Assembly (NCBI GenBank): GCA_022496805.1
Contig: CM040093.1
Coordinates: 15,282,338-15,346,337, forward strand
Origin: Pohlia nutans
Lineage: Eukaryota > Streptophyta > Bryopsida > Bryales > Mniaceae
Length of the DNA: 64,000 nt
Direction: 5' to 3'
The notes under the pieces were generated by a model. The model saw nothing but the letters and a program-made list of their open reading frames with translations. It searched no databases and was not told the DNA's origin. Of this stretch, positions 1 through 52,698 are shown in pieces; the stretch's first letter is position 1; every line of letters begins with the position of its first letter. The translations under genes and the position numbers were made by a program.

Positions 1-1291
1 GATCATGGATTTGAAATCACGTTGAAGCAATTCAACTCTTGATCCCCGTTCTTTTAATCCTTGCAGTATCTCGACAACAAATGAAAGGTGTTTGTCCCAA
101 GGGGGAAGACAATCTACTTCTGGATGACTCCAACTTTGAGCATCATAAATCTCTGAAGTTGTGGTGCCCACTATAGGAGTAACCGTAGATGGACATGGTT
201 TGGTGGAAGTTGGGATAGATTGAGAAGCCTGTAGCGATGAGCTAAAATACTCTGAATGAACATCCAATCCATCTATGATCTTTATTCGTCCTCAATCACT
301 TGTGCTTTCATATATGTTGAATGCGGTTCTTCTCGTGCTCTACAATCTACACGACCAGTGCAAACAATATTTTGAGAATCTACGTCATCAAGGTTAATAT
401 GTGGCTGGATTGGGTGTGATGTCAAACAATCTTCGTCATCAGAAAGTTCTGGTAGCTACTCTTTATAAACGACTGCTCGGTAATCACTACCGGGAGAGAT
501 AAAAACTAGTAGGAAGGACAGAAACCAGTGGATCTGGAAACGCTAAGAGAAAAAGTACTACCGGGACTGGGTCGGTAATCTCTCAAAACAGTGTAATAAA
601 AACTGGAATCATCAAACAAGAGTATCCGGAAGGAACTACTCGGTAAGCAAAGTATCAAAAGGAAAAGGATTGAGACAAAGCAATCGTATATCTCGAAAAA
701 TGAGTCATGCCAATGAGTTTGGCTCCATTTCTTATATACATAAGTACAACCAGATCTGACAGTTAGGTCAAATCGGTAAAAAGTATTTTCTTAGATCTAC
801 TTCCTGTGGTAACTTGGAATTTTACCGGAGTAGTAAAAAATCCAGATCGGTAAGCTACCGGTAATTATAAATTTACCGTTAACAAGTTCAATGATACACT
901 CTTGGAGTCGACTAGTGTTAAGACCAATTGAACACTCCACCTTCGTACTTCTAACAGGTTGGTGTGGCACCGGCTCCTCTAGAGGTCGAATACCAGGGGG
1001 AGTGTTTGATTCTTTTGATTGAATGGTACGTGCAATGTGATCGGGTGCAAACCCTTTCATTGTACCATTGATATGAAAAACCGAACTACTCGATACCTCA
1101 CAAAATGTGTACACACTGTTTTGGGGGATGCAAAGACAGTTGCCTGTAGAAACATCAATGACCATGACAGTCTCTGGTAACAATTCAAAAAAACATGATA
1201 TTTGATCTAAAGACAAAGACACTGGGATGTTAGAAATTGGAAGACCAAGATGGCGATTAGTAGCAGGGCAAGACAACTTAAAGAACTCCAT
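1..1291 (-). pseudogene. MULE transposase 5' part (E, copy 1, cut by window edge)
   Basis: Same gene as 39290-43815. Exon 1 is 1291-877, encoding MEFFKLSCPATNRHLG and so on. The intron is 876-449. Exon 2 starts at 448 with an acidic LSDDEDCLTSHPIQP segment and runs off the window. The frameshift at about 291 (GAGGACGAATAAAG) is shared with copy 2. Transcribed away from the ParB-methyltransferase gene, with which it shares a 2.2-kb divergent upstream region. Confidence 0.75.
449..876 (-). other. CCGGTA-rich intron of the MULE transposase gene
   Basis: Stretch between exon 1 and exon 2 with a GTAAAT donor and a CTACCAG acceptor on the minus strand. It is studded with TACCGG/CCGGTA words (for example near 500, 565, 825, 860), unlike neighbouring DNA. 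Copy 2 is at 42973-43400. Confidence 0.6.
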
Positions 1292-1840
1292 AACATATTT
1301 AGACAAACAGAACAGAACTTCAGAAGTTAATCGCGTTATAGAGACTACAAAACTAAGAAACCACTACAGGGAGTCATAAGAACTTATTGAAACAGACAAT
1401 GATGGAAACTAAAAACTTTGAGAATGTAATGAATTTGCTTTAATATCTTGTGAAAATGTATCATCTATCATGATTCAAAAGATATTACTGTTTAAAGTTT
1501 GTTATATTTTAAAGCTTGTAGCAAATGAGTGTCATTACTATTAAATGTAGGCAAACAATGAATATACTGAACATCAATCGAAATAGAAAAGCATAAAATC
1601 AATGGTTCCAAAGCGGTTGTCATACATTAAAAGCCTATATCTACAAAAGCAAACTGTCAACTGCTAATAAATACATAACAAAACGTAGCTTACGGTACTA
1701 GATGTAAGCAACCGATCAACGAATATTTTAAATGCGACAGTACTTTCAAGGTTTACAAATTGTCTAATGTATGGTTAATGGAATACATTTAAAAAACCAA
1801 ATTCTAATATATTGAATGTGACGTACATTAAATAAAACCA

Positions 1841-3060
1841 AATCGTTGGCGATTGCTAATAAATTGGAACCGGAACATTGTTTAAGAAGCCTTATGCAAG
1901 GCTCAACCCAAATACTTAAGTATTAAATGTGATAGTACTTTCAATAAAGAAAATTGTTGGCGGCAACAGAACATGGGTTCAGATACTCAAATATTAAATG
2001 TGACAGTACTATCTTTCAATAAAATCAAATCGTTGGCGATTGCTTATAAATTGGCAACGAAACATGGGTTAGGAAGCTTTATGCCAGCAACCCAAATACT
2101 CAAATATTAAATGTGACAATACTTTTAATAAAATGAAATTGTTGGCGATTGCTAATAAATTGGCAACAAAACATGGGTTAGGAAGCTTTATGTCAGCAAC
2201 CCAAATAATCAAATATCAAATGTATCACATTTTTCAATAAAAGAAAATTGTTGGCGACTACTAATAAATTGGCAACAGAACATAAGTTAGAGAGCCTTAT
2301 GCCATGCTCAACCCAAATACTTAAGTATTAAACGTGACATTACTTTCAATAAAGTAAATTGATGGCGGTTGCTAATAAATTGGCAACAGAACATGGGTTA
2401 GGAAGCTTTATGCTAGCAATCCAAATACTTAAATGTGACAATACTTTCAACACCTCAAAATTGTAGGCAATTGCTAATAAGTTGACATGCAACAAAACAA
2501 AAGTTAACAGCCTATATGCAAGCAACCTCATCACTCATATATAAAATGTGACAATACTTTTAATAAAAACAAATCGATGGCAACATAACATAGGTTACAA
2601 ACATCTCCAAGAGGGCTCTTCAAATGAGCCCTCAACGGCACGCCCCAAGAGCCACTTGCTAAAGGTAAGTTGCTCAAAGGTTTTGCCAAAAGGGCACCTT
2701 GGTTCTCCAAATTTCCACCTTTTGGTAAGGCTCTCAATGCGCCATGTTTCTTTTTTAATACGGAATTTTTATGATTTTTGACTGGTCACTATGAGTCACA
2801 TTACCACCATCTATGTTTTTGGCATGCTATAGATAGAGCGCAAGCCACACCAACCAAGAGCCGTCTCAAAAGGACTTACAAAAGAAACAGAAAGACAGAC
2901 AGACAGATGGTGTGGCCCTTTGAAGAGCCACGATTAAAGATGCTCTAAGAGACTATATTCAAGCAATTTAGATACTCATAATTATATTAAATGTGACAGT
3001 ACTAAAATGTATTCAATAAAAGTAAATCGTGGGCAATTGCTAATAAATTGGCAATTGTAT
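1841..3060 (+). repeat. Iteron array in the divergent promoter of E (copy 1)
   Basis: About nine units of ~107 bp, of the form AAATCGTTGGCGATTGCTAA...GGCAACA...CATGGGTTAGGAAGC...AAATGTGACAATACTTT. Units start near 1840, 1949 (shortened), 2027, 2136, 2245, 2355, 2457, 2570 and 3026, with a more degenerate one before 1840. The core AATCG-TTGG-CGATT is an inverted repeat; perfect cores are at 1841-1854 and 2028-2041. The array lies between the start of the transposase gene (1291, minus) and the ParB-methyltransferase gene (3502, plus), so it could be a regulatory or binding array. That role is inference. Confidence 0.85.
2602..2943. mobile_element. MITE inside the iteron array (copy 1)
   Basis: About 340 bp interrupting the eighth iteron. 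The ends form an imperfect inverted repeat: CATCTCCAAGAGGGCTCTTC on the left against the complement of GAAGAGCCACGATTAAAGAT on the right. This resembles common plant MITE ends (GCATCTCC...). No convincing target duplication was found, so the superfamily is not assigned. Copy 2 is at 45126-45467. Confidence 0.6.
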
Positions 3061-3601
3061 TTAAATTGTCAATTTTCCCAAGGAGTGCACTCTATATTAT
3101 GTTTGAGAATCACGTGCATTCATGACCCCCTCAAAAAAACCTAAATATATAATTAATGTAAGTATACTTCACTATTTTCAACTCTAAACATGTTTATAGT
3201 ATGTAAACGTAATACGACAAAGTTCAAATTAATACCCCTTTGTGCACTCACGTACACTTGTACATAATTAATGTAATGCACCCTCCGAGTCAGTTGCATC
3301 ACCTATTTATGATTAGCTTAGTGGCAACAGGTGGGTGGGTGTTATTGATAATAAATAGTACTCTTCCCAAAGTGGGATAATTAATAGTATGTTTAAAAGC
3401 AATGCTCTTCAAATTTCAAAAGTAGTCCCAAATTAGAGATACATCACTACAAAGCTCTTTAACCTAGTTCTTTGTTAGTATTTACAAGCTTAGCACCACA
3501 AATGAGGGAGCTAAGGACTAAGAAGTCCACTGCAAAACCTGATTTTGTGTATGAGAGACTAGTTAGTAAAAGTCGACAGAGGCCCCTAAAGGTTATGTCT
3601 T

Positions 3602-4040
3602 CGCTTTTGCAAGAGGAAATCGCTGGCGATTCTGCGATTTGTGAGTCAAAAAAGCGCCTTCACTTTTAGAAGAGAAAATCGTTGGCGATTATGTGATTTG
3701 TGAGTCAGAGAGGGCGCCTTCACTTTTGGAAGAGGAAATCGTTGATGATTGTGCGATTTGTGAGTTACAGAAGGCGCCTTTGCTTTTGAGAGAGGAAATC
3801 GTTGATGATTGTATGATTTGTGAGTTGGAGAGGGCTCCTTTGGAAGAGGAAATCATTCACGATTGTGCGATTTGTGAGCCAGAGAGGACGCCTTTGCTTT
3901 TGGAAGAAGAAATCGTTCACGATTGTATGATCTGTGAGTCGGAGTGGGCACCTTCACTTTTGGAAAACAAAATCGCTGGCGATTGTGTGATCTATGAGTC
4001 AAAGAGGGCGCCTTCAAACCCTAAAATGGTTGGCGATAGT
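3602..4040 (+). repeat. 60-bp coding tandem repeat in exon 1 (copy 1)
   Basis: Seven units plus a partial eighth, each about 60 bp (20 residues). The pattern is SLLEEEIVDDCAICELQKAP with variable CxIC and EEE parts. Unit 1 has lost one base in an A-run (near 3650), which breaks the frame. Units 1, 2 and 7 contain AATCGYTGGCGATT (3618-3631, 3677-3690, 3971-3984), the same palindromic core as the upstream non-coding iterons. The function of the peptide repeat is unknown; CxxC pairs could bind metal. Confidence 0.85.
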
Positions 4041-5782
4041 ATAGACTGTGACAATGAAAAAGGGCTTGAACATGGGTTTGGTGATGCAGCATCTGAGTCG
4101 ACTGGCTTAGTAACACCCTCATTAGATCCAACTAATTCAACAATCGAAGCAGATCCAGAATGCTCCAAAGTTGGATCAATCTGGATCAAAGAGCTTTGAT
4201 CAAAGGAGTGGGGGAGGTAATCACTGAGCTCAGAGAGGAAGATGCTACGATTTGTGTTGGTGGAAGCGCCACTCCATCAAATGCTGTTCCTTCAAATGTT
4301 GCTCCTTTGACCAAAGGAAAGATGAAGGTATGTTCTAAACTTCTTTTTATGTTGTTGAAATGATATGTTAGTTGAATAGTGGTGGCTTGATGGCTCGATT
4401 TGTGAATCACTACTCTTTTGAGCTTTGTCTTTCATCTTGCTTCTAGCCTCCCTTGCTCAACTTTTATTAGCTAGTAGGAGAGGACAACATTTTTAGTCGA
4501 TAAAGGTTTACTGGAATGATAACATGGATTCTACTAATCATGTTATAAATAAGTGCATGATTATCAAACCCACTTAATTGAACTCTCAAGAACATGTTTC
4601 AAAGCTGTTCATAACATATTGTATCAATAATTAGATGAAGGCAACCAACCAGATAATTTATCTACAATCAGTTCTTTGATTTGCAATTGAAGGGATCAAA
4701 TGTGATTACTGTACATATTATATATATAATGTTGTGATGTCAAAAATGGAATAATTTTTTTTCCCCGTTTTGTACACGATTCTTGCAGGACATGATTCTT
4801 GCAATAGCTGTAAGACCTATCAATTTGGAATATTCTTATTTGCATGTAAATATCTTCATAGAAACTTTTGACTCTTACCATGTGCATTCTAAGTACGTAA
4901 AGTTGTTTGGTGCAGAGATCCGAAAAGAATGAAGTTTTGATGCAGCCCAAGCAAATGACTCGAAAGCATTCCCCTAAAGTCTTGGCAAAATACACGGCTT
5001 TAGATGGAATCAAATTGGGCTCTGAACCTGCCGCAGACAAAAATACTCAACTTCAAAGGCTTGCAATAGGACAACCACTTGACATTCCTCTTTGTCGTCT
5101 AATTACCATGGAAGTAGTGAGATCTATTATGCAGGATGACATTGAGGATCTTCAAAACAACTTCATAGAAAAACACTATATCTCGTCAGTGGGAGGTCTT
5201 TTTTATACCAGCTTGCAGGAATTTGGCACTGAAGAGGTTGTAGATGTAACTTCAGAGCAATTTTCATCATGGGATCCCATTTGGCAACGGAAAAGCAAAG
5301 AGTTTGATGAATTTTTACTTACTACCAAAAATGAATTTTTGGTTGGTAAGATGCTCTGGGTATGGGAAGGAAACCATAGATGTCGTGCATGGATGCAAAC
5401 AATTCATGATCTGTACATGGATCGAGAGGATCGACACATATCAGTAAAGACACAAGTTCTGGATGGCAAACTCGAAAATCAAGTTCTGATATTACAAGGC
5501 TGTCAAGACGTAAACGAGTAAGACCATCAATTATGTAGTTGTATCAAATTGTGATAAAATATGATTCTAATTGAAATGGTTATGTAACTAATGACTTGTT
5601 GTTTTGGAGACAAAGTCTTGCTTGAAACTGTGAAACCCAGATTTATTCATGAACTGATGAGTGTAAAAAAATGGGCGTATCAACCACTTGAGTGGTGGAA
5701 GCCATTTCTTACTCCGCAGCAATACATGACTATTCTTGCAACTCGGGAGAAGACGCATCAAGATTGGATTCATGTTAACAAA

Positions 5783-5792
5783 GAAATCATTT
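5783..5792. repeat. TSD of nested MULE, left (partner 11796-11805)
   Basis: Perfect 10-bp direct repeat GAAATCATTT bordering the element on both sides. Same TSD length as for E. Confidence 0.88.
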
Positions 5793-6359
5793 GGACGAGG
5801 ATACTATGCGAGCGGTGAGCAGAGAGCGGAGAGCAGAGAGCAGAAAAAAAGCGAGCCAAGAGCACGAATTTGGGAATGGAATTTATAAATAGATTTTAAA
5901 AACTAATTTTAGAAGAAATTTTCAAAATATTCGAATATTTTGTGGAATATTCTTTTATTAATAGAATATTCAAATATTAGTATATTTTTAGAAAATAATA
6001 TTGACCTATGACCGTGGGCTGAAACGTGGAAAAATGGCATTTGATTTACACTTTTCTTTCAACCGCATGATTTTTTTATTTCAGTGTTTATTGCATAGTC
6101 CATCAATTTTCGGTTTAGGGTGTCCTCAAAGCTGTGAGTGAACACATACACTTGTTTGGATGTTGATGCAGTAATTACAAAACTTCAACATGTGACAGAG
6201 AATTTTGATATAATAATAGATAGAAGAAACTTTATATTGCTGAAATCGTCAGATAAGCCTGGAACATAAATGGTAGGTCATTAGACTCCGTTAAATGTAC
6301 TATGTCTCAGCCTCGGCCATTGTTTGAGCCTTCTAGTATTGATGACACATCTGCTTGTG

Positions 6360-7609
6360 TTAGTCCCATCGATCTTCAACGATGTATTTCTCAGTATGCT
6401 TCACCATGGACTGGGTCCAGTGAAATTGACAAGTCCTTTCACGGTCGTCCATACGTTCCTCCTTGTTGCCGGACCCATAGACAATCCAAACGGCGTTCCA
6501 GTTGGTCTGGGCACTGTTTGCCATGAAGCCCTTGAAGTATGGCATGTCAACTCCATGTCGCTTCATCACGACGTTGAGATTCTTCCAGAAGACCATTTGC
6601 GCTTCAATGTCCTCCGACTGCAAGTCGCAGCAAGCAATAGTCATGACACGGCAATAAATGGAGTCATAGACATGGCAAGCCATCGTTGTCCATTGTATGA
6701 CTTGTTTCACGTGATCAAACATTGACCAGACATTCTCAAGATCACCATTGGGTTGCATCCGCTTCACTAGGTTCATCCCACTCCCAGGGCCCACTTCAGA
6801 CATCTTGAAGACGTACACCTTGTCTAGCTTGGAACCTTGGCCAGGAAACATGTTCATTTGAACAAAAGCCCATTTGCTAAGGCCTCGCAGCCTTGTGATG
6901 TTGTCCATGACACCGTACCTTCTCAAGTACCTGAAGGTGCCAACCTTATTTCGAATATTTGGTGAAGCCATGTCCTTGCATCAATCTAGCACTGGAACTA
7001 GTTCCTCAAAGCTCAATGTCTTGGGCGGATCGTCCTTGGACCTCAACAAGAAGCCTCCGATGAGAGTCTTGCTTGCCTCCAATACCACTACACTCTTTGT
7101 CGCTTGCAGAGTCTTCTCAATCTAATCTCCAATCAGAATGTTGATTTCGACTTTGGTGTCCCTATAGTCACGAACCTTAACAGGATACTTGTGAGATCCA
7201 AGGTAGATGCAAACACGAGTTCTGTTACGCTTGCCGGACACATAATAGATCTTTGCTCCACAAATGGCAAGACAGGAGGGCGGTTCCTTACACACACCTT
7301 GCACACCACGGTCGAACCTCTAGAAGGACCCTGGCCCACAACAAACGCCTGCAATGTGCATCCATCAAACTCAGTCTCGATCACTTCATAAATGCGATGT
7401 TCACGTCTGAGGTAGTCGCACTCTTTATTCTCACATCGCAGGTGCTCTACACAGTTGGAGAATTGAAATGAGAGACCCATGCCATTAGTAATGTTGGATG
7501 TGATGGTCTTGGTCCATACATGGCCATTGTAGCGCTTATCCATTCCTTGCATAGCCTTTGCATGCAAACGAGAGGCAGATGCTTCAGCAGGAGAGTCGGT
7601 GTGCTTCAT
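6360..7609 (-). pseudogene. Truncated MULE transposase of the nested element (copy 1)
   Basis: Minus-strand remnant homologous to E's transposase over its N-terminal and core parts. It shows a Cys-rich segment (CKVC...PPSCLAIC), TRVCIYLGSHKYPV (against E's TRVGIHVGVHNHPV), FPGQGSKLDKVYVFKMSEVG, MFDHVKQVIQWTTMACHVYD, GFMANSAQTNWNAV and RERTCQFHWTQSMVKHT. Lesions: a frameshift near 7280, an in-frame TAG near 7120, a TGA near 6980 and a stop at 6360. The C-terminal half, including any SWIM finger, is absent. GC content is higher than in E's transposase, suggesting a different source lineage. Confidence 0.8.
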
Positions 7610-7735
7610 CGTGTGGTTTTGTGTCTTAGATTCTTACATGTTCATGGCTTTGTCAAGAATGTGATCACATGATGAGTGGTATTTTTTTTGGAAGATTGGT
7701 TCTAAAATATGTTCTACCCCTTAATATTTTCATAA

Positions 7736-10170
7736 GGCCGGGTCCGACCTATGAAAATGCGAGTGTACTAATGCGTTGTGGCGCCACTGATGCGTGCGTG
7801 CGATCAAGTGATGCGCTTATAACGCGAGTAATGCACGTGTACTAATGCGGCAGTAGCGCCAGTGATGCATGCCATAGCTCTTGAGCGTGCGAGTGATGTA
7901 CTAAGGTGAGTGGAGACCATAATCAGGGATCGGGTCCGAAACTCCATTCAAACACTGAGTTGTGCGAGTAATGCACCAAGCTGAGGGATGACAAGAATCA
8001 TGGGTCGGGTTCGACACTCTATTTTTCCACTGAGTTGTGCTTGTGATGCACCAAGCTAAGGGGTGACCTTAATCAAGGGTCGGTTTCTTACTGGTCACTA
8101 AGCCACAAAGTTTTGCTTGTGACGCACCAGTAGTAGGAGACCATAATCAATGTTTGATTCCAACCTCTCATTGAGGATGCTGAGATGTGCTTGTGACGCA
8201 TGAGTTGTGGGAAGACCATAATCAGGGTTTGGGTCCGACCTCTCATCGAGGATGTTGAGTTGTGCGAGTGACGCACCAACTCTAGGGAGACCATAATCAG
8301 AGGTTCGGGTCCGACCTCTCTCCTAGGGGGATATAATATACCATTGGAAAGGTGCTTTCAAGACCTTTCCAACAGTATATTACACGCCCAAAACTGCCAA
8401 ATATTGAGTTCGCAAACAAAAAAACCAGTCCTACGAGCCGGTCAGAATTTAGTGGTCGGGTCCGAACCTTCCCTAGGGGATTATAATATACCATTGGAAA
8501 GGTGCTTTCAAGACCTTTCCAACGGTATATTACACGCCCAAAACTACCAAATATTGAGTTCGCAAACAAAAAAACCAGTCCTACGAGCCGGTTAGAATTT
8601 AGTGGACCCAGCCTTTTCAGATTGTGGCTTGAGGTATAGACAACAATATTGGGACAGGTAGAAACCATGGGTCGGGTCTGACACTCCATTTAGGCATTGA
8701 GTTGTGCTTGTGATGCATGAGCTGAGGGATGCCCATTATCAGAGGTTCGAGTCCGACACTACATTTAGCCACTGAGTAGTGCTTGTGATCACCAAGCTGA
8801 GGGATGCCAATATCAGGGGTTTGGGTCCGACACTCTATTTAGCCATTGAGTTTTTCTCGTAATTCATCATGCTGAGAGATGCCCATTATCATGGGTTCGG
8901 GGTCGACACTACATTTTGCCACTGAGTGATTTGAGTGATGCACAATGCTGAGGGATGCACATTATCGGGCGTTCGGGTCCGACCTCACATTTAGCGACTG
9001 TGTTTTGCAAGTGTTGCATGAGCTATGCTAAGACCAAAATCAAGGGTTCGGGTCCAACCTCTCATTTAGCCACTGAATTTGGTAGTGTTGCATGAGCTGA
9101 GGGATGCCATAATCAACGGTTCGGGTCCGACCTCTCATTTAGCCACTGAGTTTGGGAGTGATGCATGAGCTTTGGGATGGATATAATCAGGGTTCGGGTC
9201 CGACTTCTTGTTTAGCCACTGAGTATTGGTAATGTTCCATGAGCTGTGGGATGATAAAAATCAGGGTTCAGGTCCGACATCTCATTTAGCCACTAAATTG
9301 TGCAAGTGTTGCATGAGCTGAGGGATGCCCATAAACATGTGCTCGGGTCCGACACTCCTTTTAGCCATTGAATAATAAGAGTGATGCATGAATTCAAGGA
9401 TGCTCATTATCATGGGTTTGGGGCCGACACTACATTTAGGCACTAAGTAATTTGAGTGATGCCGGAGGTGTGGGATGCCCATAAACATAAGCTCGGGTCC
9501 GACACTCCTTTTAGGCAATGAGTAATTCAAGTACTGCATGAGCTCTGGGATGCCCAAAACTAGAGACTCGGGACCGACTCTCCATTTAGCCACTGAGTAA
9601 TTTGAGTGATGCATGAGCTGAAGGATGCCCATTATCAGAGGTTCAGGTCCGATACTCCGTTTAGCCACTGAGTAATAAGAGTGATGCATGAGCTGTGGGA
9701 TGCCTATTATCAGAGGTTTGGGTCCAACAGTCCGTTTAGCCACTGAGTGATTTGAGTGATGCATGAGCTAAGGGATGCCCATTATTAGAGGTTCGGGTCC
9801 GATACTTCGCTTAGCTACTTAGTAATAAGAGTGATGCATGAGCTATGGGATGCCTATTATCAGAGGTTTGGGTCCAATAGTCCGTTTAGCCATTGAGTAA
9901 GTTGAGTGATGCATGAGCTGAGGAATGCCCATTATCAGAGGTTCAGGTCCAATACTCCGTTTAGCCACTGAGTAATTTGAGTGATACATGAGCTGAAGGA
10001 TGCCCATTATCACAAGTTTGGGTCCGATACTCCGTTTAGCCACTGAATAATTTGAGTGATACATGAGCTGAAGGATGCCCATTATCACAGGTTCGGGTCC
10101 GATACTCCGTTTAGCCACTGAATGATTTGAGTGATGCATGAGCTAAGGGATGCCCATTATCAAAGGTTGG
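7736..10170. repeat. Satellite-like array A, ~75-bp units (copy 1)
   Basis: About 30 diverged units. The consensus runs TTTAGCCACTGAGTAATTTG, AGTGATGCATGAGCTGAGGG, ATGCCCATTATCAGAGGTTC, GGGTCCGACACTCCG. Units are most regular from 9000 to 10170. Because 75 is a multiple of three, long minus-strand open frames of 25-residue repeats appear (for example 9282-9764); I regard these as by-products. The recurring GGTTCGGGTCC resembles a Pol III B-box but lacks its usual A. Copy 2 is at 50260-52694. Confidence 0.9.
8322..8605. repeat. Duplicated 134-bp module inside array A (copy 1)
   Basis: Two copies (8322-8455 and 8472-8605) of a module unlike the surrounding 75-bp units. Each contains an inverted repeat ATACCATTGGAAAGG / CCTTTCCAACGGTAT with a short spacer and ends in CAGAATTTAGTGG-like sequence. 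Copy 2 is at 50846-51129. Confidence 0.8.
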
Positions 10171-10174
10171 GGTC

Positions 10175-11440
10175 ATTTGTGGTGTGAGTAACGGAGTCAG
10201 GCTGTGGTGTGTGAGTAACACAAGTCAGGCTGTTGTGTGTGAGTAACACAAGTCAGGCTGTATGGTATGAGTTACTTAGAGTCAGGTTGTGGTCTCTCAG
10301 TAATGCGTGTCAGGCTTTGGTGTGAGTAACAGAGTCGGCGTTGGTGTTTTATGGCGTTCAACGCGCTGTATGAGTAACACAATTAGACTATGGTGTGTGA
10401 GTATTGCGAGCCAGGCTGTATGGTATGAGTAACGGAATCAGCTGTGGGTGTGAGTAACGCGTTCAACGCGTGGTGTGAATAACAAAGTTAGGCTGTGATG
10501 TGAGTAATGCGAGCCAAGCTTTGTTACGAGTGACGCAAGTCAGGCTGTGATGCGAGTGTAGGGTGGTCTTGGTGTTCATGTCGTCATGCGATGTGTTCAT
10601 GTTGGCCAAGTGCTGGTCTTGGTACGAGTCAGGTTTGACAGGTGTGTTGCGAGAAATGCGTAGGGGTGATGGTGTGAGTAGCGGATTTAGGCTGCGTTGC
10701 GATAAATGCGAGTCAGGCTGTGGTTAGAGCGTAGGTTGGTCTTCGTGTTTGTGTGGTGAGAGTCATGTGTTCATGTTGGCGAAGTGGCAAGTGCAACGCG
10801 TGCTGCAAGTAACGCGAGTCAATCGTGTTGCCAAAAATGCAACGAGGTGATGTGTGAGTAGCGAAGTCAGGCTGTGGTGTGAGTAATGGAGTCAGCTGTG
10901 GTTTGAGTGTAATGTGAATCAAGCTGTAGTGTGGGTAATCGAGTCAACTGTGTTGTGGAAGTATTGCGAATCAGGCTTTTGTTTGAGTAACTTAGAGTCA
11001 GCTGTGGTATGAGTAAAGCATTCAACGCGTGATGTGAGTAACGCGGGTCAAGCTTTGGTGTGAGTAACGGAGTCAGGCTATGGTGTGAGTAACACAAATC
11101 AGTCTGTGTTGCGAGTAACAGAGTCAGGCTGTGGTGTGAGTAACATGAGTCAGGATGTGTTCCGAGTAACGCGAGAGAAGCTGTGGTGCGAGTCTAGACT
11201 GGTATTGGTATTCATGTGGTCATGTCATGTACACGTTCATGTTGGCCAAGTGCGAGTCATACGGTGTAAGACCACAGGTTGCGAGTCATAAGGTGCCATT
11301 CATAGGTGTGGAGGTCATGCATCTGTGGGAGTCATGTTGTGGTGCGTTCGTGTGTTCATGTCGTCATGGTGCTCGTTTTAATAGACTAACGCATGGTGTG
11401 AGTAACGCGAATCAGGATGTGGTCTGAGTCTGGTCTATGG
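10175..11440. repeat. Satellite-like array B, ~25-30-bp units (copy 1)
   Basis: Degenerate short repeats of the type GGTGTGAGTAACGCGAGTCA followed by GGCTGTG, with interspersed TTCATGTTGGCCAAGTG blocks (about 10600, 10770, 11240). No gene is seen. Followed to 11590 by three GGATGAATGTCCCACATAT-type repeats. Copy 2 is at 52699-53964. Confidence 0.85.
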
Positions 11441-11795
11441 AGTGACACAAGTGCATGAGTGATGCGTAGATGAATGTCCCACATATAGGTGAATGTGGAT
11501 GAATGTCGTATGAAAAACCATGGATGAATGTCCCACATATGGATGAATGTGGATGAATGTTGTATGAAAGACCGTGGATGAATGTCCCAAATTCCATATC
11601 TCACAACTAAATTCTCCTAAATTCCACGGTTATACACGCCAATTCTCCCAAAATATATTATTAAAAAAATGAAAAAATCCACGGTTATAGGAACCCTTAC
11701 CCTAAAAATGACTGCGAAAATGTTTAAAGTCTGCTCTTTAATTTCTGCTCTCTGCTCTCCGCTCTCCGCTCTCCGCTCGCATACGACCTTTCTCC

Positions 11796-11805
11796 GAAAT
11801 CATTT
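11796..11805. repeat. TSD of nested MULE, right
   Basis: GAAATCATTT, right partner of 5783-5792. The coding sequence resumes at 11806 with CAGATTTGGTTTATAAG before a GTGAGT donor. Confidence 0.88.
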
Positions 11806-11876
11806 CAGATTTGGTTTATAAGGTGAGTTGGTTCAACTGTTGGTGTAGTTTTAGAGTGTATCAACATAAACATTAA

Positions 11877-12245
11877 GGGTGCATTCACAATAAAACGAGC
11901 CAACCCTGCCCAGTTATAACGACTCTTGATGAGTGCTTAGAAAATAATATCTTCAATTTATGTAGATATTAGAAAAATTTAAGGACATTTTGCGACATAT
12001 TTTGAACATTTTAGCACATTTTAGTCGTTATTAACGACTCGTTACGACCATATTTTAGTCGTTTTGGAGTACCAATAACTTCCCAAACATTGTCAAACTT
12101 TAGTATATTGTATAATGACATATATTATATGTAGTTACTAATTTATATTGCATTATCAATTCATATGATAAGATTATTGCTTAACAATCCGTTAAATTAA
12201 TCACTGGTTACAGTTTCCTTGGATCGTGTTACTGTGAATGTACCC
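11877..12245 (+). mobile_element. 369-bp MITE with 4-bp TSD, in intron 3 (copy 1)
   Basis: TIRs GGGTGCATTCACAATAAAAC and the complement of GTGTTACTGTGAATGTACCC, flanked by TTAA (11873-11876 and 12246-12249). It contains repeated ACGAC/CGTTA words. It lies in intron 3 of the ParB-methyltransferase gene, shared with copy 2 (54401-54769). An inverted relative of the same length sits at 29037-29405. Confidence 0.88.
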
Positions 12246-15200
12246 TTAATCTTAGGTTTTTGCCTTCACATGTAAATCTTTTCAAATCCTAAGACTAAAT
12301 AATGTTGAATGTTTGTTGTTGCCTTCATGTGAGTTGCCAGAACTACATGTTGAATGTTGCATATTGAAGCCTTTCATATATTGAATGCTGAATGTTGAAT
12401 GTTAAAGTCTTCACTTGTTAACCCTTTCACAATCTTAGCCCTTTGGTATTACATTTATTCTTATATAGTACGTGCTATCATTGTGTGTGAACCTTTTTAA
12501 ATGTTGAACTTATACTACTACATAATGTGCTGAAAATGTGTTGCTTTATAATAGAGTGAGATCAAGAAGAAGGTCCAGCAAAAGCAGCAGGATTACGTAA
12601 AAAAGAACAAGGTTAACACATGCACTCTGCAAGGAATTCAACTGATGGACCAAAATGCTGCAATTGCATTAACTGAAGTGAGAACTAGTATGACAACTCG
12701 AATAGGAAGGGTGCTATGCATGGTGCACCCAGATATTCCTGAGGAGTGGCATGAGATGCTGAAAAAGCTTTTCACATTCAAAAGTGATGTAACATTTGAG
12801 AAGCTTGATCGGCTTGTTTGATGTCCCGTTTCATGGGAAGAAAAAATAGAATGGCTCAAGTATAGGGATGCCTCTGAAGAAACGCAGCAACTAGCTGGTT
12901 GGCCAATGAAGACCGGCAACAACACTGGTCTAGATCCTTTTCTTTGCAGGCAAACATTTTTGTATCAGGTTTGTGTATATTATTTGAATGTTCTATATTG
13001 CTCATTTCTCAAATATTTACTACTTTCAAATACATTTGCATTGACTCATATGAGTTTGTGGTTGTTGCAGCTAAAGCAAGAAGCAGTGAAATTGCTTGAT
13101 TCTTTATCAAATGGGCTTGATAAGAGCTTAGCATATGGGCCATTTAAATGGTCAGACAAAGCACGAGAAGGACATGATTGGATAACAATTGATTCTTATA
13201 TTGACAAATGGATTCGTATGTTTTACAAGTCACTATTTAGTCCCAAGATCATACTACAACATTATGACAAGAAGACTACAATTTGGCGCCAAAGTTTGTG
13301 GATTAAGCAACCATCCATGAGAAATCGCATTCTCAGACGTTGCGTCCTCAGGTACTTTTACATGTTTCATACATTAAATTTGTGTTTAGAAATTATCCTT
13401 CAATATTTTTGAAATTTACAATCATGATTTTAACGCCACAAATTTTTAATTTCAGGTACATCTCGTTTGTTCTTATTGAGCAAAACTTTTTATTAGTGAA
13501 TCCAGATTGTGGAGTGAAAATCAACTTGCAGCATATCATGTTCTTCACCTTGCCAATTGTGGCTGGTATCTTGATCTACCACCCAATGTCATTCTAGAGG
13601 ATGAAAAGTTGCTACACAGTCATATCAAAGAGCAGATTTCAAGGAGTGATGTACCACAAGTTGCATCAGCGAGAAGCCTCACAACAATTGCAAGCCTCAA
13701 AGAGGCGGCAACTATTGCAGAGAAGGTTGCTAAAAAGGATGAAGGGAAGAAGACAGGGAAGAATGGAAGATGGCCAAAACCACCCAAAAGCCTCAAAATA
13801 AGAAAGGAGAGAAATCAAAAAGACATCTGATCAACCAAATGAAAAAACTAGAAGGTAATAATTGAAATTTTTGTAGTTCTCAAATTTGTAAATGTGATTT
13901 TAACATGTATACATTTCAATTGCATTTTCTCTATTTATTCAAAAGGCTTGATAATTCTAATTCTATGAAATATTGCCTTGTAACAACCTGAAGAGAACTA
14001 GGAGTGAGGACAAAGAAGAAAGTGAAGATGAAGAAAGTGATGAGGACTCGGACTAGCAGAAGCCCACATTCCGCCGTTTTACCAAGCGAGGAAATATAGG
14101 AATTGTGGAAGACCAAAACTCTGCAACTCACCGCCATCCTTACAAGCTGCTCTTATGTTAGTTCCATTTGGCAATTCAAGACCAGTTGGAGGGAAAAACT
14201 ACTGAGGATTCTAATTTAGAATTTTTAAAACTCGCAAAGGTATACGCCGAAAGGAATACCGCAAGTGGAAAATATGATTTGGCAATTGTTTATGTCCCTG
14301 ATGGTTGGCCTATTACAGAGTGTCCAGATTGGCAAACTTGGAATTTTTTTCCACGGAAAAGTTATTTTGAGTATATCACAGTTGCATGTGGAGCATTGGT
14401 TAAGCCATCTGGTGCTATCCTCATCTTGATGAATGATGATCGGATCTTAGAGCGATTGATGAGAAGCTATGTTCAACATCCCTTATACATTTTCAACAAA
14501 GAAATGCGTAAATGGCACGTTGTGAACTTGGAGGTCATGCAAAGAGCCGATGGCACGAAGGTAATGTTCTTCTTTGGCTAATTTGAATTGATTGTGTTTG
14601 GTTGTTAAATGTAATGACTTTATATTGTACCAATGTAAAGTTCTTATTTAGTGATTTTGATTTGTTGCAGACAATGATATCACATGTCTTATGCTTTGCA
14701 AACGGTTCAAATGGCTTTAGCCTCAAAAACAATGCTATATATATTGAGGACTCCATTGATGCTTACGAGGATGACGTTATCAAAAATTATATGAAATCAA
14801 ATGATTTTTGCAAACGTCTAGATGGGTCCAATGTTCGAGGTTCACGCGAGAAGTCTCCTGCACTCATGCAACAATTGATTGAGATGTGTTGTCCAAAAGG
14901 TGGCTCTGTCCTTGATTTAACAGTTGGGACCTGTGAGTTGCACAACACTTTTCCATTGGAAACTTTGAATTCATCGTTGCATTTATTGAAAGGGTTGGAT
15001 ATATTCTTATACTTCTGTGATTTGTTGTGGTATAAGAATTGTCAAAATCTTTCAACATTCTACGCAGGTGCATCAATGGAAGCGGCAATTGGAAGTGGTC
15101 GCTATGCCTGTGGATTTGAGGGTGATGCCACTCTCCATTCCATTGTCAGCAAGCGGTTGATGAAGTTGAATAGAAAAAATGATGCAAACATCCCGGTTCC

Positions 15201-15548
15201 AACTCCAAATGCAATTGACCATGTCGACGACTGTGAGCCTATTATTTTTACTCAATCTAGAAGTATTAACTTTGAGTAAGGCTCCATTCTGAAACTAGGC
15301 TCTCTATTATGTAATCATGTTAGTATATGTTGTATAGAATCTGATTTCTTCATATTAGCATGCAGGTGAAGTGGAGATGCTGGTCTCCAATCCATTTTAT
15401 AGGACTACCGTCATATGCAAAGTCGCTTGCAAGGAAAGAAGAAGAAGATAGTTTATTGTCACCTGACGATGATATTATTAAACCTGTCAGATCTACTAGA
15501 AGACGAAGATGTGTTTTTGTTGATGATGAGGCTGAGATTGATCCTTGA

Positions 15549-16539
15549 GATCATATTGATTCTTGGTTTAGATTGGTCTTCATGCTAGAGCTTTGACCTT
15601 CTTACAACAATATAGTTTCAACAAAACTAAATATTGTCACGACCTTTTGTCATAGAATTTGATCACATTCTCATCTTGAAAGCACTTTCATTACTTCCAT
15701 TGACAATTTTTTTTACAAGGTATGCTACATTAAGGGTATTTGTGATGCCAATAGTTGCTTTACAGGCCCCACTAGATGGAGGTATCAAGTGGACATATTG
15801 CAATGGGTTATGTCTTCCTCTTTTTACTATTTGAACATTCTCATGACGTCATAACCACAGTTACTAAGGAAAAACAAAGAAATGATCTTCAAAATATTCG
15901 AGGAGAAAGAAAATGGAGAACGTTCCATTTACATGTAATAGACTCTATTATAAATTGAGATAATGTGATTACACTCTTAAGTGTATGGAGGTTGTGACTC
16001 TTCATCCTTTTTTCCCTATAAAGTCCTCTTTTTGATTGGAATTAAATACACTAATTACAAAAAAAAAACGTTTCATCATGTCATGTTTCACATCTTGAAA
16101 TAGGTAAATTGTAAAAGGTCATGACATAATTTTCATTGTTGTTTTGCGTTGTATCAATGATCTTGAATGTATGATTCTATAGTATGAATGATTTTAATGT
16201 AGCTTTGGAGTTCAAAGCCATAGGCGTCTTGTGAGGTTTCGTTGAGGCTTTTGAACTTAGGAATTTCCAAAACGCTGTCTTTACACCATAGCAATACACA
16301 TTAGCATTCTATAATAGTTAGGGCTCACCTTCACCTTTGAATATTGTGAGAAAGCAACAATAAATTACATTGACTACATGTGGCAAAAGTTGTTCTTTAA
16401 TCACAATTGATGATGTGTATGCCACGTAAGATATGACATGGATGCCACGTAAGATATGACGTGGATGCCACGTAGGATGTGATTGGATGCCACGTAAGGT
16501 GTGATATGCCAGTGTGCTCATTATTGCAATATAATTTTC
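15549..16539. other. 3' non-coding region of E
   Basis: AT-rich DNA between the end of the ParB-methyltransferase gene and the right TIR. No supported gene. It contains a short minisatellite at 16412-16512, four units of GGATGCCACGTAAGATATGA type. Confidence 0.7.
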
Positions 16540-16653
16540 TTGACATCACAGAATTTTTATAGAATATACCAATAAATATTCCAAGATTTGCACTTGCACT
16601 CTGCACTCCGCACTCTTGCACTCTAATGTCTGTAGTTCAGGCTAGACAACCTC
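16540..16653 (-). repeat. Right TIR of E
   Basis: Inverted partner of 38414-38530, about 75-80% identical over 110 bp. It contains the complementary GCACTCY heptamer array at about 16590-16624. The start of a spurious open frame at 16626 lies within it. Confidence 0.85.
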
Positions 16654-16663
16654 TAGAGAGAAG
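16654..16663. repeat. 10-bp target-site duplication of E (right side)
   Basis: TAGAGAGAAG at the right border of E copy 1; partner of 38404-38413. The right terminus has two extra bases (TC) between the best-aligned TIR end and the TSD, so the exact end could be 16651 or 16653. Confidence 0.8.
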
Positions 16664-29032: not shown

Positions 29033-29036
29033 AACA

Positions 29037-38288: not shown

Positions 38289-38413
38289 ATGGACAATTTC
38301 TCTCAAAACCCTTACTATTGTAGCCAGCCAAATCTAACGGGGATAGAAATTTTTTTGGCTCCAAATTCTTATGGAGTATTTCAGCCCTATTCAACTCAAG
38401 TTATAGAGAGAAG
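38289..38413 (+). pseudogene. N-terminus of Harbinger Myb/SANT-like protein
   Basis: ATG at 38289 starts MDNFSQNPYYCSQPNLTG, a style typical for the second gene of plant PIF/Harbinger elements. It continues to TQVIERR, where E copy 2 is inserted. The frame joins exactly to LEERVVHGEVD at 16664 once E and one TSD are removed. Confidence 0.65.
38404..38413. repeat. 10-bp target-site duplication of E (left side)
   Basis: TAGAGAGAAG immediately left of E copy 2, identical to 16654-16663 immediately right of E copy 1. The two lie in the same codons of the interrupted Harbinger gene. Deleting E and one copy restores the reading frame. Confidence 0.8.
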
Positions 38414-38530
38414 GGTCCGACTAAGATGAACTGCAAACATCAGAGTGCAAGGGTGCGGAGTGCGGAGTGCGAGTGCGAATCTTGGAATCTTTTATAGAAT
38501 ATTTTAGGAATATTCTCATTATGTCAGTCG
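38414..38530 (+). repeat. Left TIR of E
   Basis: Imperfect inverted match to 16540-16653. Shared parts include TGAACTRCARACATYAGAGT, an array of GAGTGCR heptamers (about 38442-38478) and AATCTTGGAAT, followed by an AT-rich stretch with TATAGAATAT. Related in design to the nested MULE's TIR, which uses GAGAGCR heptamers. Confidence 0.85.
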
Positions 38531-39289
38531 AGGTTTGATGTTTGTCAGAATTTCAAATTGAGACGAACTAAATATTTAGATTGTGTTCAAATAGGTTTAG
38601 GGTGGTTTGTAACTTTGTACCAATACCAACTTGATAAAAGATTGCCATATTATGAAACGAAAAGTCTGAAAATTGCCAAAATATATTGTTTAATATTATA
38701 AACTTATAGAACTAAATCTTTGGAGTAGTGAAGTGATTGTGTCTTTACATTCATCAAATCTAGTATCTTTGACGAACAGAGAGACTTGGCATTGTCTAGA
38801 ATTCATAATTGCAAAGACAACATCTACTACAGAAATCACACAAGAACATTTTTCAAGGGCATAAGACAGATAAAGATCTAAAAATCTAAAGAGTTCAACT
38901 CAATTGTAAAAGAAGAGAGTAAAAATGTCAAATGGACTCTAGAGTGATAAAATTCAAATATGACAAACCTTGATATTCAATTGATTATAATAAGAGTTGG
39001 TCAGATAAGGAATTTAATTGCATATGATTTAAGAGAGGAAGTACTAGGGAGAGAAGATGTGGCTGAAACCATCTATTGAAGAATTTCACGAATGAGAGAA
39101 GAATGAGGATTTTGAACATAAATATGATTTCAAAAAGCATTTATGAAACATCTAAGAATATAAGAGTAGAAATTTTTGAATCTAGTGATCAAATTGATAG
39201 CTAAAAACAATCTTAAAATCCAACACTGCTCTACAAAAAGGATGCAATTCTAGTATGATAGCTAATTTTCCAAATTGGAACAGAAAATA
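38531..39289. other. 3' non-coding region of E's transposase gene
   Basis: AT-rich DNA between the left TIR and the transposase stop; no gene seen. It would hold the minus-strand 3' UTR. Confidence 0.6.
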
Positions 39290-42200
39290 TTACGGCATAG
39301 GAATCTCGTTTGGCGTCAAAGGATCCTTCTTGAGCATGTCATCAACCTCTGCATTGGAGAGAGTTACATTGTGAATCGCAAAAGAACTATTCATATCCAA
39401 GTGCTTGTTGTAAATCCAATACAAATGTTTACATGGCTTGAATCTTATCTTCAAACGATGTGGCTCCTTGGATGTGAAATCAGGGCAAGTACATGAAGGT
39501 TCTTCAGCAATAGTGACTGCATATACAGCTCCTTCAATCCCAGACTTCACCTGGTAGCACCTTCCACTCAGTTTGGAAGAAAGAAGAACACATGATAGAA
39601 TTTGAGCATTCAACTCATTTCCTGCTTTTTCACGATCACGTAAGGCCTGACATGGAATACTTCGGCGAAAACGGTGGCCATCACGATAGGAATTCTGCTT
39701 ACTATAAGAGGTCTTCTTAGAATTTCTATTCCTCCCTCTCTGAGAAACTTGGTTGGAACCACTAGCATTTTCAGACCCACTTTGTCTGGTGCAGCGATGT
39801 CGACCATTGGGCGTTGGAACTAAGGCATAACCACCAAGGGTAAAAGCAGTAACCTCCTCTTGTGTTAAATTTGTACCTGGTTGGATAGGCCATACATTTG
39901 GAAGAGGAAGTGTCCTCGACACACGAGGTCCATTGGCATGAGATACACAACCTGGGAGAGTAGTAGGACAAAACCAGAGACGATGGGACCTCCCACCTTC
40001 TAGATTAGGAGGGAAATAACGACCATGGATACTAGGGCATGCTCTACCATGAGGATGGTCATGCACATTGCATAGAGGAGCTGAACAATGCTCATTTGTA
40101 TAATTCATATTCCAAGCCAAACACTTGATTTTAGTAACACATGGAGTTCAAGCAATATGCCATTGAGAGAGAGGCACTCCATTTTGTGTCTCCAACACAA
40201 CTTGGCCTGCCCGAATAGGAAATGGACTATTGACATATCCGGTTCTAGGAAACTCAAAATTGCCTCTTGTGGGAAAAGTAGCACCATTTGAAATAGAAAT
40301 ATCCGGCAATTCCATAGAATTAGATAAGTGTTCAGGATCCTGACCTGGGCTACAAAACTCAGCACCACAATTCATGCTTGAAATTAGCACCTCATCACCA
40401 AGTCCTTCAGAGTGAGTTGATGTAGATGGCGACACATTGTCAAATTCAATAACAGGAGAAGAGTTGGCATCCGTGTCATTGAATGGTTCATTCAATGCAA
40501 CAATAGTGCTAAACATAGCACGAACTCCTTCAAGTCTAGTAGAAGGAGGTGGTGGCGGAGGATATTGGACTGAGTATGAGATGAAGGAACTAGGATCCGG
40601 GGTAGCTAATACTGGCAAGTGAATTTGAGATGATGAGGGAGGCCTATTCCGAACAAGACCAAGTACAGTAAATGCGGTTGGTCTGGACGATGAGAATTCC
40701 CATTGTACATATGCACTCTTATTGGTTGTTTTAGGACGAGAATCATTCTCTGCACCAATGCCTTTACCATGGTAATTTTTACCTATAGTGCAGGCATTAA
40801 TTGCAGCTTCCACCTTCTTAATATCCCCAGATCGATTTGCTGCTCTCAACATCAGATCCTCATAAGACGGGCCAGTTCCAATTCCAATTCCTTTCAAAAA
40901 CATCTGATATCGAGATTGCTGCATAAGTGCTCGGACAATGTCATGGATACTTGCAGATACAAGGTTTGTCTTCTTTTTTCTACCATTCCCTGCAGATTGC
41001 CACCAAGAACTATGAACAGTTTCTGCCAGATTGGTGTTTGGACATGCAGCAAACTCCTCAATTGACATATCAGCTCGCATCCACTCTCTCCAATGACATG
41101 CACGTTGTCGCCACCAAGCAAGGTATTGTTCAAGTAATCGAGCTGCCTCGTCAGATTTTGCAGCTCCTGAATTCTGCCACTAGTCAATAATTTCAAAGTA
41201 CTTGATCTCAGCTTCTTCAAGCGTTGATGAATTTTGCCACTCTCGACATCTTCTTCTACTTTCATCTCTGAAGTCCACTGCAACATGATCAACTGTGTGC
41301 CTTTTCAAATTCTCCTTCCAATGAAAAAAACATGTCCGTTCTTTTCGTGGATCTGGTTTGCCACCAAAATATACCTCCCTCACAGCATTCCAATTTGTTT
41401 GGGCCTCATCTGCCATAAATCCTCGGAAGTCGACTTTGTTGATGCCATGGTACATACACTTTTGATTTAGAAGCCTCCAAAATAACACTTGTGGAATTTG
41501 ACCCTCTGCCTTCATATCGCATGTTGCGATTGTCATAACTCCACGATAGTGAGGGTCATACACATGATTGACAAGCTAGTGTTGTCCAACCTTCCACTCT
41601 TTTGACATGATCAAAAACAATCCATGAATTCTGAAGATCACTTCCTTCTGTAAACATCCTTCGAACAATATCAACTCCAGATCCTCGGCCATGTGTCGAC
41701 ATTTTAAAAAGATAACATTGTGTCTTTGGACCCCCCTGGCCAGGGAAATTACTATCGTATATGTAATCGTACATAAAGTTTACCCCCAATGCAAGAATAT
41801 CTAGGTTGTTAGCATCCCTCAAGTTGTCAATGTCATTCTTCACACTTGCATTTGCAATTCCTTCAAAACGTTCAAGAACCTCTTCTAGTTTAGAACCTTG
41901 AAGCTTGGGTTGTCCAGCACCTGACATAAGCTCCTGAAATAAAATCTTTTCCCCAGCACGCATAGTAATCCCAGCCACTGATCCCCTTTAGTTGGCTTCT
42001 CACTCACGGCCTCCTTCAAATACTTCTTTGTTGCACTGTAGACCTTCTTACACATAGGGGCGTTTGCAACAGGGTGGTTGTGTACACCTACGTGAATTCC
42101 AACACGGGTGACAATATCTGATTTTGAAAACACAAGATAGAATCTAGCTGAACATAATGATAAACAAGTTGGTGAGTGGCTGAGTGCTTGCAATACGCAC

Positions 42201-43815
42201 ATTTCAACTTACAAATTTCTCCTACATACGGGATGGAGAATGTTGTTTCTATCCAGTTTGTTTCATTTGGCCTCCTCTCAGTCATATTGTGTGGACACAT
42301 GATGTTATCACAACGACAGTGTCCTGTACATTTTCGGCTCTTGAATTTTAACTCCACATCGGCACTGACAGAGTGCGAAGAGGGTTTTGTCCACGGATAT
42401 ATGTCACTATCATTCATCATGCCCTCAAGTAAACCACCCAACTGAGTGTTTGGCTTAGAAATTGGAGGAAGTTCAAAGATGACTTCACCTCTATAAATTG
42501 CAGGTACTTCTTAACTCTGAATAAGATCATGGATTTGAAATCACGTTGAAGCAATTCAACTCTTGATCCCCGTTCTTTTAATCCTTGCAGTATCTCGACA
42601 ACAAATGAAAGGTGTTTGTCCCAAGGGGGAAGACAATCTACTTCTGGATGACTCCAACTTTGAGCATCATAAATCTCTGAAGTTGTGGTGCCCACTATAG
42701 GAGTAACCGTAGATGGACATGGTTTGGTGGAAGTTGGGATAGATTGAGAAGCCTGTAGCGATGAGCTAAAATACTCTGAATGAACATCCAATCCATCTAT
42801 GATCTTTATTCGTCCTCAATCACTTGTGCTTTCATATATGTTGAATGCGGTTCTTCTCGTGCTCTACAATCTACACGACCAGTGCAAACAATATTTTGAG
42901 AATCTACGTCATCAAGGTTAATATGTGGCTGGATTGGGTGTGATGTCAAACAATCTTCGTCATCAGAAAGTTCTGGTAGCTACTCTTTATAAACGACTGC
43001 TCGGTAATCACTACCGGGAGAGATAAAAACTAGTAGGAAGGACAGAAACCAGTGGATCTGGAAACGCTAAGAGAAAAAATACTACCGGGACTGGGTCGGT
43101 AATCTCTCAAAACAGTGTAATAAAAACTGGAATCATCAAACAAGAGTATCCGGAAGGAACTACTCGGTAAGCAAAGTATCAAAAGGAAAAGGATTGAGAC
43201 AAAGCAATCGTATATCTCGAAAAATGAGTCATGCCAATGAGTTTGGCTCCATTTCTTATATACATAAGTACAACCAGATCTGACAGTTAGGTCAAATCGG
43301 TAAAAAGTATTTTCTTAGATCTACTTCCTGTGGTAACTTGGAATTTTACCGGAGTAGTAAAAAATCCAGATCGGTAAGCTACCGGTAATTATAAATTTAC
43401 CGTTAACAAGTTCAATGATACACTCTTGGAGTCGACTAGTGTTAAGACCAATTGAACACTCCACCTTCGTACTTCTAACAGGTTGGTGTGGCACCGGCTC
43501 CTCTAGAGGTCGAATACCAGGGGGAGTGTTTGATTCTTTTGATTGAATGGTACGTGCAATGTGATCGGGTGCAAACCCTTTCATTGTACCATTGATATGA
43601 AAAACCGAACTACTCGATACCTCACAAAATGTGTACACACTGTTTTGGGGGATGCAAAGACAGTTGCCTGTAGAAACATCAATGACCATGACAGTCTCTG
43701 GTAACAATTCAAAAAAACATGATATTTGATCTAAAGACAAAGACACTGGGATGTTAGAAATTGGAAGACCAAGATGGCGATTAGTAGCAGGGCAAGACAA
43801 CTTAAAGAACTCCAT
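39290..43815 (-). pseudogene. MULE transposase with SWIM zinc finger (E, copy 2)
   Basis: Minus-strand transposase gene of E, about 1,300 codons. Exon 1 is 43815-43401 (ATG at 43815). A 428-nt intron (43400-42973) has GT..AG ends in phase 1. Exon 2 continues to the stop at 39290. In order it holds an acidic/Ser-rich N-terminus, a Cys-rich segment (about 42340-42150), a VGIHVGVHNHPV motif, and a MULE DDE-type core with VFDHVKR, GFMADEAQTNWNAV and ERTCFFHWKENLKRHT (about 41640-41280). A Pro/Ser-rich region follows, then a SWIM finger CxCx(18)CxH (39493-39425). It would cut and rejoin E's TIRs in the nucleus. It is broken: apparent frameshifts near 42815, 42510, 42130, 41985 and 41570 (4-bp gain), TAG at 41180 and TGA at about 40148. 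Family known; exact family name not recognised. Confidence 0.85.
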
Positions 43816-50133: not shown

Positions 50134-50259
50134 CGTGTGGTTTTGTGTCTTAGATTCTTACATGTTCATGGCTTTGTCAAGAATGTGATCACATGATGAG
50201 TGGTATTTTTTTTGGAAGATTGGTTCTAAAATATGTTCTACCCCTTAATATTTTCATAA

Positions 50260-52694: not shown

Positions 52695-52698
52695 GGTC

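Follow-up and report, generated by a model that had tools for sequence, protein, structure and literature searches.

To our knowledge, the VANDAL elements of Arabidopsis, which are Mutator-like elements (MULEs), and their VANC proteins are the only detailed case of a plant transposon encoding a protein that counteracts silencing in a sequence-specific manner. From a different context, ParB/sulfiredoxin-like domains occur beside phage methyltransferases. According to the available sections of PMC5735166, VANC21 binds a short motif that is present in one orientation and at high density in the non-coding tandem repeats of VANDAL21, and VANC proteins carry tandem peptide repeats. Here we describe element E of Pohlia nutans, which lies in a 64,000-nucleotide stretch of contig C9 (hereafter the window; the genome searched comprises 698 Mb) and is a decayed 20.8-kb DNA transposon, likely of the Mutator superfamily. 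E has defined termini with a target-site duplication, two divergent genes, one of which contains a conserved GNHR exon and a methyltransferase-like domain, repeat arrays and a high copy number. New for a MULE-type element are the domain make-up of its accessory protein and the oriented arrays of a palindromic 16-mer.

Like VANC, the predicted E protein is encoded next to the transposase of a MULE-type element and contains tandem peptide repeats, and as in VANDAL elements, short oriented motifs are found at high density in the element's non-coding tandem repeats. The E gene differs from VANC in its GNHR and methyltransferase-like domains, and the E motif is palindromic and also located in coding repeats. 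The preliminary description of this DNA had already pointed to VANDAL elements, and the likeness extends further than was claimed there, namely to the tandem peptide repeats and the oriented, target-like motif arrays. Cytosine and adenine methyltransferases have been reported within retrotransposons of the DIRS type, of dinoflagellates and of charophytes (PMC5890265). E shares with these (the adenine methyltransferase of DIRS and the DNA methyltransferases in Symbiodinium and Klebsormidium elements) a mobile element with a DNA-methyltransferase domain, whereas E is a DNA transposon with inverted repeats, and its PF01555-type domain belongs to its own predicted multi-exon gene and has motifs that are degraded by eye. 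The bdelloid N4CMT and the N4-methylcytosine (4mC) enzyme of Marchantia also represent bacterial-type amino-methyltransferase domains in a eukaryote; however, these are host enzymes, with SPPY in N4CMT (PMC8885841), whereas that of E is element-borne, present in high copy and without SPPY. With the ParB/sulfiredoxin-like domains and their phage methyltransferases, E has in common a DGNHR/EGNHR motif and a later methyltransferase domain, but the latter follows several exons on, and the GNHR domain gave neither a PF02195 match in 65 members nor a fold match. To mudrB of maize MuDR and other second open reading frames of MULEs, E can be likened by layout only, as a second gene is joined with a transposase in one element. 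Second genes of MULEs (PMC6446971, where the word "methyltransferase" does not occur in the main text as available) and TET/JBP genes in fungal DNA transposons (PMC12730594) are in print; in the literature searched, no paper paired "Mutator-like" with "ParB", and the titles and abstract openings surveyed showed no element of the present kind.

Ends, class and copies of element E

Copy 1 of E spans 20,764 bp. It starts at C9:15278227, which is 4,110 bases before the window (negative positions denote this left-hand flank), and ends at position 16,653. Its inverted repeats (-4,097 to -3,998 and 16,541 to 16,639) are 81% identical across 100 bp, and the element is bordered on both sides by the exact 10-bp sequence TAGAGAGAAG; a 10-mer common to two random 40-nucleotide stretches of this DNA arose in 367 of 200,000 trials. 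The right inverted repeat is 93% identical to that of a relative on contig C18 (C18a), and the right ends of both elements are alike through CAACCTC (E position 16,653) and diverge from the next base on. Since the duplication is flush with the ends and the likeness to C18a stops at 16,653, we conclude that E measures 20,764 bp, of which 6,003 bp belong to a nested element. The gene described below is thus indeed located inside transposon termini, as had been proposed, with TAGAGAGAAG beyond the right end at 16,653 and beyond the left end 4,110 bases before the window.

Both E and the nested element carry terminal inverted repeats (84% identical over 57 nucleotides in the latter) and an exact 10-bp target-site duplication, within the range of about 8-11 bp that characterizes MULEs. 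The transposase pieces of E, which are encoded on the minus strand, contain a SWIM zinc finger scoring just below the Pfam cut-off (E=8.5e-4, 19.3 bits vs 19.6), a domain listed for many MULE groups in the available part of PMC6446971. Given the termini, the duplication length and the SWIM finger, E likely belongs to the Mutator superfamily, although Pfam scans detected no MULE domain. The transposase pieces of E share 42-55% identity with their counterparts in the nested element (minus strand, 6360-7633), also shift frame, and are divergent from the GNHR/methyltransferase-like gene on the opposite strand; in copy 1 they are situated left of the window.

The nested element is flanked by GAAATCATTT at 5783-5792 and 11796-11805, and the C18 relative reads straight through its insertion site without the insert. 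Inside the nested element, no match to the surrounding gene was found. Our first reading, that a MULE had inserted into a gene and not the reverse, was dropped: the nested element lies in an exon, and the gene lies within the larger E. The nested element also contains a tandem array (8660-10170) with offsets of about 75 bp in a self-comparison, and the GC skew reaches 0.285 at 10001-12000.

A second copy of E is located further right in the window, within a segmental duplication of 25.6 kb and 99.6% identity (29,652-55,253 vs -12,919 to 12,726) that covers E's 5' half together with the DNA flanking it on the left; further pieces to the left are 97-99% identical. Since both copies share flanking DNA far to the left of E (to -12,919), copy 2 represents a segmental duplication, and a second transposition is ruled out. 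Copy 2 breaks off within an exon of the gene, where a sequence resembling a long terminal repeat (LTR; identified by eye, TGTAACGCCCC...) starts at 55253, and a search of the 80 kb to the right of the window did not reveal its 3' half.

Next, we examined the family. A search of the genome with the GNHR exon revealed 1,295 candidate places, of which 150 were scored, all with E<1e-18. After 12 near or partial copies, including the two in the window, were set aside, 138 places remained that are 32-43% identical to the query, 120 of them without a stop inside the match. Four further copies (C18a, C23a, C23b and C3a) were examined in stretches of 18 kb. In all but C3a, the opposite strand encodes a homologous transposase upstream, whose matching segment begins at a distance of about 3.9 to 7.1 kb; these three copies include one close relative of E. 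In the paired copies elsewhere, the GNHR exons are 29-39% and the transposase pieces 36-55% identical to those of E. C23b has an open transposase frame of 578 amino acids (aa) and a pair of short inverted repeats (23 bp, E=0.05) that are separated by about 10.1 kb.

A transposase search with the nested type as query yielded 1,862 candidates, of which 150 were scored. Pairing was then tested after removal of near kin and of the window's own copies, which left 138 of the 150 scored GNHR places and 148 of the 150 scored transposases; the sizes of six contigs were approximate. Among the places listed, whose transposases belong to the subfamily of the nested element and not to that of E, 8 pairs were no more than 20 kb apart, against 1.4 expected and a maximum of 8 in 2,000 random sets, and 2 pairs were no more than 10 kb apart (0.7 expected).

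The gene, its GNHR exon and the methyltransferase-like domain

A multi-exon gene on the plus strand had been claimed at this locus, and this holds in so far as plus-strand open stretches with plausible donor and acceptor sites extend from 3502 to about 15,276, separated by predicted introns; beyond that description, the copy is broken according to our gene model. With three frame changes (near 3655, at 4136-4196 and near 13,490), three stops (Table 1) and the nested element in an exon, the gene of copy 1 looks dead. Part of the frame changes and stops could be due to unrecognised introns, which the nested element cannot be. The protein encoded by the middle exons is 91-97% identical to that of the C18 copy. 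Between E and C18a, synonymous (dS) and non-synonymous (dN) divergence amount to 0.110 and 0.033 in the GNHR exon and to 0.096 and 0.042 in the methyltransferase exons, and the GNHR exon of C18a itself holds two stops. Homologues of the read-through protein were not detected at E 0.01 among 5.8 billion proteins (7,993 candidates scored). One copy of a 370-bp repeat resembling a miniature inverted-repeat transposable element (MITE) is located in a predicted intron of the gene. Its copies are 95-97% identical (11877-12246, 29036-29405, 54401-54770 and, right of the window, L005:5215-5586), and the one at 54401 belongs to the duplication.

The GNHR motif itself was confirmed at 5369-5380. It is kept in at least 90% of 65 aligned family members, 59 of which were not chosen on the motif, and is of the G-x-H-R type known from the ParB/sulfiredoxin-like superfamily. 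These 59 are database relatives out of 71 that a GNHR profile search retrieved; the 71 range from 96 to 270 aa and lack precomputed Pfam domains. The sequence P0001 and 11 others that were shorter or gave weak coverage were omitted from the alignment. P0001 is an open reading frame on a 1,554-base contig of a JGI metagenome and shares 99% identity with the GNHR exon, from which we conclude that the host or a near relative was present in the sequenced environment. A second alignment comprised 15 other GNHR exons, which were chosen for open frames holding the motif from 16 loci tried of 30 fetched. Among 13 open GNHR exons (78 pairs), the median dS was 1.21, the median dN 0.070 and the median dN/dS 0.060, with a largest value of 0.47 among pairs with defined dS; these copies were chosen for open frames, which lowers dN/dS. 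The invariance in the second alignment and the low dN/dS are therefore partly a selection effect. Nevertheless, a dS above 1 with little protein change suggests purifying selection on the GNHR exon and that the protein mattered to the elements.

The identity of the GNHR domain as ParB, in contrast, was not confirmed. PF02195 matched neither the exon nor any of the 65 family members scanned, and a family search of the own genome for PF02195 gave no hit. Weak profile matches among the 65 members were scattered over 18 families, including DUF1015 (3 of 65, best 0.0042), DndB (one) and DUF6551 (one), which we take to be ParB-like families. Structure models of the domain were of too low quality for judging the fold (predicted local distance difference test, pLDDT, 42 and 50), Foldseek searches with these models gave no match at E<0.001, and profile searches of solved structures returned only weak matches to seemingly unrelated proteins. 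The GNHR exon also had no matches in viral contigs and in phages.

The methyltransferase-like domain is real, with its motif region located at about 14,902-15,140. A single exon matched PF01555 weakly (E=0.013), whereas the three exons joined at the splice sites reached E=2.2e-5 and 24.9 bits, just under the curated cut-off of 26.7. The corresponding match of C23a, whose GNHR exon is 40% identical, exceeds the Pfam cut-off (E=9.1e-7, 29.5 bits), and the joined exons of E match the phage families phrog_67 ("DNA methyltransferase", E=1.6e-8) and phrog_3008 (DNA methyltransferase, 1.7e-6) of PHROG. The methyltransferase part of the preliminary description is thereby substantiated. In a tblastn search of this part against 50,697 phage records, 363 records matched up to E=10; among the 15 matches listed, 12 are DNA methylases or methyltransferases, two are unannotated and one is hypothetical, with a lowest E-value of 1e-3. 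The matches to phage-family profiles are weak evidence that this part may have a prokaryotic or viral source.

Motif IV of such enzymes takes forms such as SPPY, DPPY, NPPY and DPPW, as listed in the available text of PMC8885841. In E and C23a the respective stretches, placed by eye and not by an alignment tool, read VPDGWP and VDMPENLP, and (D/N/S)PP(Y/F/W) was not found at the expected place. In addition, DPFMGSG of the solved methyltransferase 8urk aligns to DLTVGTC of the E gene (E=0.31). The methyltransferase fold thus looks degraded and is possibly inactive, and the suggestion of a DNA-marking enzyme is left unsupported, since the usual catalytic motifs appear by eye to be lost in two diverged members.

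Oriented arrays of a palindromic motif

The 16-mer AAATCGTTGGCGATTG, which contains the inverted repeat AATCG-ttgg-CGATT, is common to the non-coding repeats between the two genes and to the coding repeats of exon 1. The former are 109-bp tandem repeats at 1983-2568 with single units outside, the latter 60-bp repeats at 3599-4016. Allowing up to three mismatches, each E copy contains 15 matches, exclusively on the plus strand: exon 1 holds 8 of them, and the remaining 7 lie in non-coding DNA. Of the 31 matches in the window, 30 belong to the two E copies, every one of these in plus orientation, where 0.64 would be expected from shuffles. When the 184 kb surrounding E are considered, just 2 of 32 matches are located outside E. 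C18a has 11 matches, all on the plus strand. Among near-kin loci with 1.5-kb flanks, L016 has 5 matches, L024 has 6 and L019 has 7 together with one on the minus strand that coincides with a plus-strand match, and none were found in L017, L018 and L022.

Table 1 Features of element E and its copies in the window.
Feature	Position	Strand	Remarks
Element E, copy 1	1..16653 in window		Ends in inverted repeats; target site duplicated exactly over 10 bp
Right terminal inverted repeat of E	16541..16653		Pairs with the left one
Target-site duplication of E, TAGAGAGAAG	16654..16663; partner at -4120 to -4111		Exact 10 bp, flush with both ends
Non-coding stretch	1840..3039	+	109-bp tandem repeats, 7 matches to AAATCGTTGGCGATTG (up to 3 mismatches); between transposase and gene
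Exon 1 (predicted)	3502..4330	+	60-bp coding tandem repeats, 8 matches to the 16-mer; two frame changes
GNHR-domain exon	4916..5517	+	Open frame
Exon split by nested element	5610..11822	+	Uninterrupted in C18 relative
Nested element, 6,003 bp	5793..11795		Inverted repeats, 10-bp duplication GAAATCATTT
Middle exons	12557..13349 (12557-12968; 13072-13349)	+	In-frame stop 12819-12821
Middle-to-late coding pieces	13456..14100	+	Frame change near 13,490; stop 14054-14056
Methyltransferase-like domain, three exons	to 14562 (from 14100); 14671-14932; 15067-15276	+	PF01555, phrog_67; stop 14159-14161
Element E, copy 2	38404..55252		Left target-site sequence and left inverted repeat up to start of LTR-like sequence
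Transposase pieces with SWIM zinc finger, copy 2	39290..41747	-	SWIM E=8.5e-4

Just right of E, an open transposase frame at 18243-19208 matches DDE_Tnp_4 (E=1.6e-12), and we take it to belong to a Harbinger-type element. An open frame of 409 aa on the minus strand (21957-23186) lies in GC-rich DNA and, judged by its heme-binding motif, may encode a cytochrome P450.

A proposed self-targeting protein and its alternatives

E bears a transposase gene and, divergent to it, a predicted gene of several exons, in which a methyltransferase-like domain comes after a conserved domain with the GNHR motif. In our preferred reading, the predicted protein would bind the palindromic repeats in E's own DNA and would likely guard the element against host silencing, as VANC does for VANDAL elements, and its methyltransferase fold would serve as a clamp for DNA or S-adenosylmethionine (SAM) and not as an enzyme. 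We hold this reading tentatively, as a prospect slightly short of even. We prefer it to a DNA-marking enzyme or a gene captured from the host mainly because the arrays resemble those of VANDAL21. A more specific version appears doubtful, in which a GNHR/methyltransferase-fold protein and palindromic iterons in the element centre and first exon would form a parS-like system that shields E from silencing, co-evolved in each subfamily and arose independently of VANC.

Several results weigh against a self-targeting protein. Exon scans gave no match to DUF1985, the VANC domain, and Pfam scans detected no MULE domain in the transposase pieces. The 16-mer is absent from C23a, C23b and C3a across 54 kb, so that each subfamily would need its own motif if the arrays are general, and its presence in both coding and non-coding repeats could reflect common descent of the repeat units. 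The arrangement of E, with the transposase upstream on the opposite strand, was found in none of the 8 pairs within 20 kb among the places listed. No target-site duplication was seen for C23b and no terminal pair for C23a in the fetched stretch. Moreover, no methyltransferase exons were seen in the C23b gene before its terminal repeat; the domain is therefore not universal in the family and may have been lost or gained within it (C23:14209321-14227320, loci L049 and L050). A role of the gene as helper or passenger, considered below, is a less probable alternative.

Among the alternatives, the one we consider least improbable, though still unlikely, is a transposition helper that works with the transposase at ends or repeats and has no silencing role, as mudrB of maize is thought to do. 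The divergent pairing with a transposase in E and three of four other copies and the strong conservation of the GNHR exon are in line with such a function, and extra MULE proteins of this kind exist (PMC6446971, available part); however, the arrays are central in E, partly within a coding exon, and lie away from the termini. Somewhat less probable still is an active DNA methyltransferase that writes N6-methyladenine (6mA) or 4mC on the element DNA, with the mark protecting it or guiding transposition. The matches to PF01555 and to phage methyltransferase families fit this explanation, as do the retrotransposon-borne methyltransferases of DIRS, dinoflagellates and charophytes (PMC5890265, as far as available), whereas the degradation of motif IV by eye in two diverged members and of DPFxGSG in E (8urk alignment, E=0.31) argues against catalysis.

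Capture of a host gene by E as a Pack-MULE passenger, although described for plant MULEs in the available part of PMC6446971, is very unlikely here, since the pair recurs at 29-39% identity of the GNHR exons and 36-55% of the transposase pieces, and open copies show a dN/dS of 0.06. We give least credence to a host gene family that merely adjoins unrelated transposons, with the termini a coincidence. The small number of pairs (8 within 20 kb from 138 GNHR places and 148 listed transposases) and their mixed arrangement would agree with it, but both sets of places listed are a subset of the candidates, the listed transposases represent the nested subfamily and not that of E, and the exact 10-bp duplication is flush with both ends, where the likeness to C18 stops as well.

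If a self-targeting anti-silencing protein is indeed encoded by E, it would represent a second, unrelated architecture with the layout of VANC, and self-targeting counter-defence would have evolved repeatedly. This might explain how the family reached over a thousand candidate copies, and the palindrome provides a directly testable candidate binding site.

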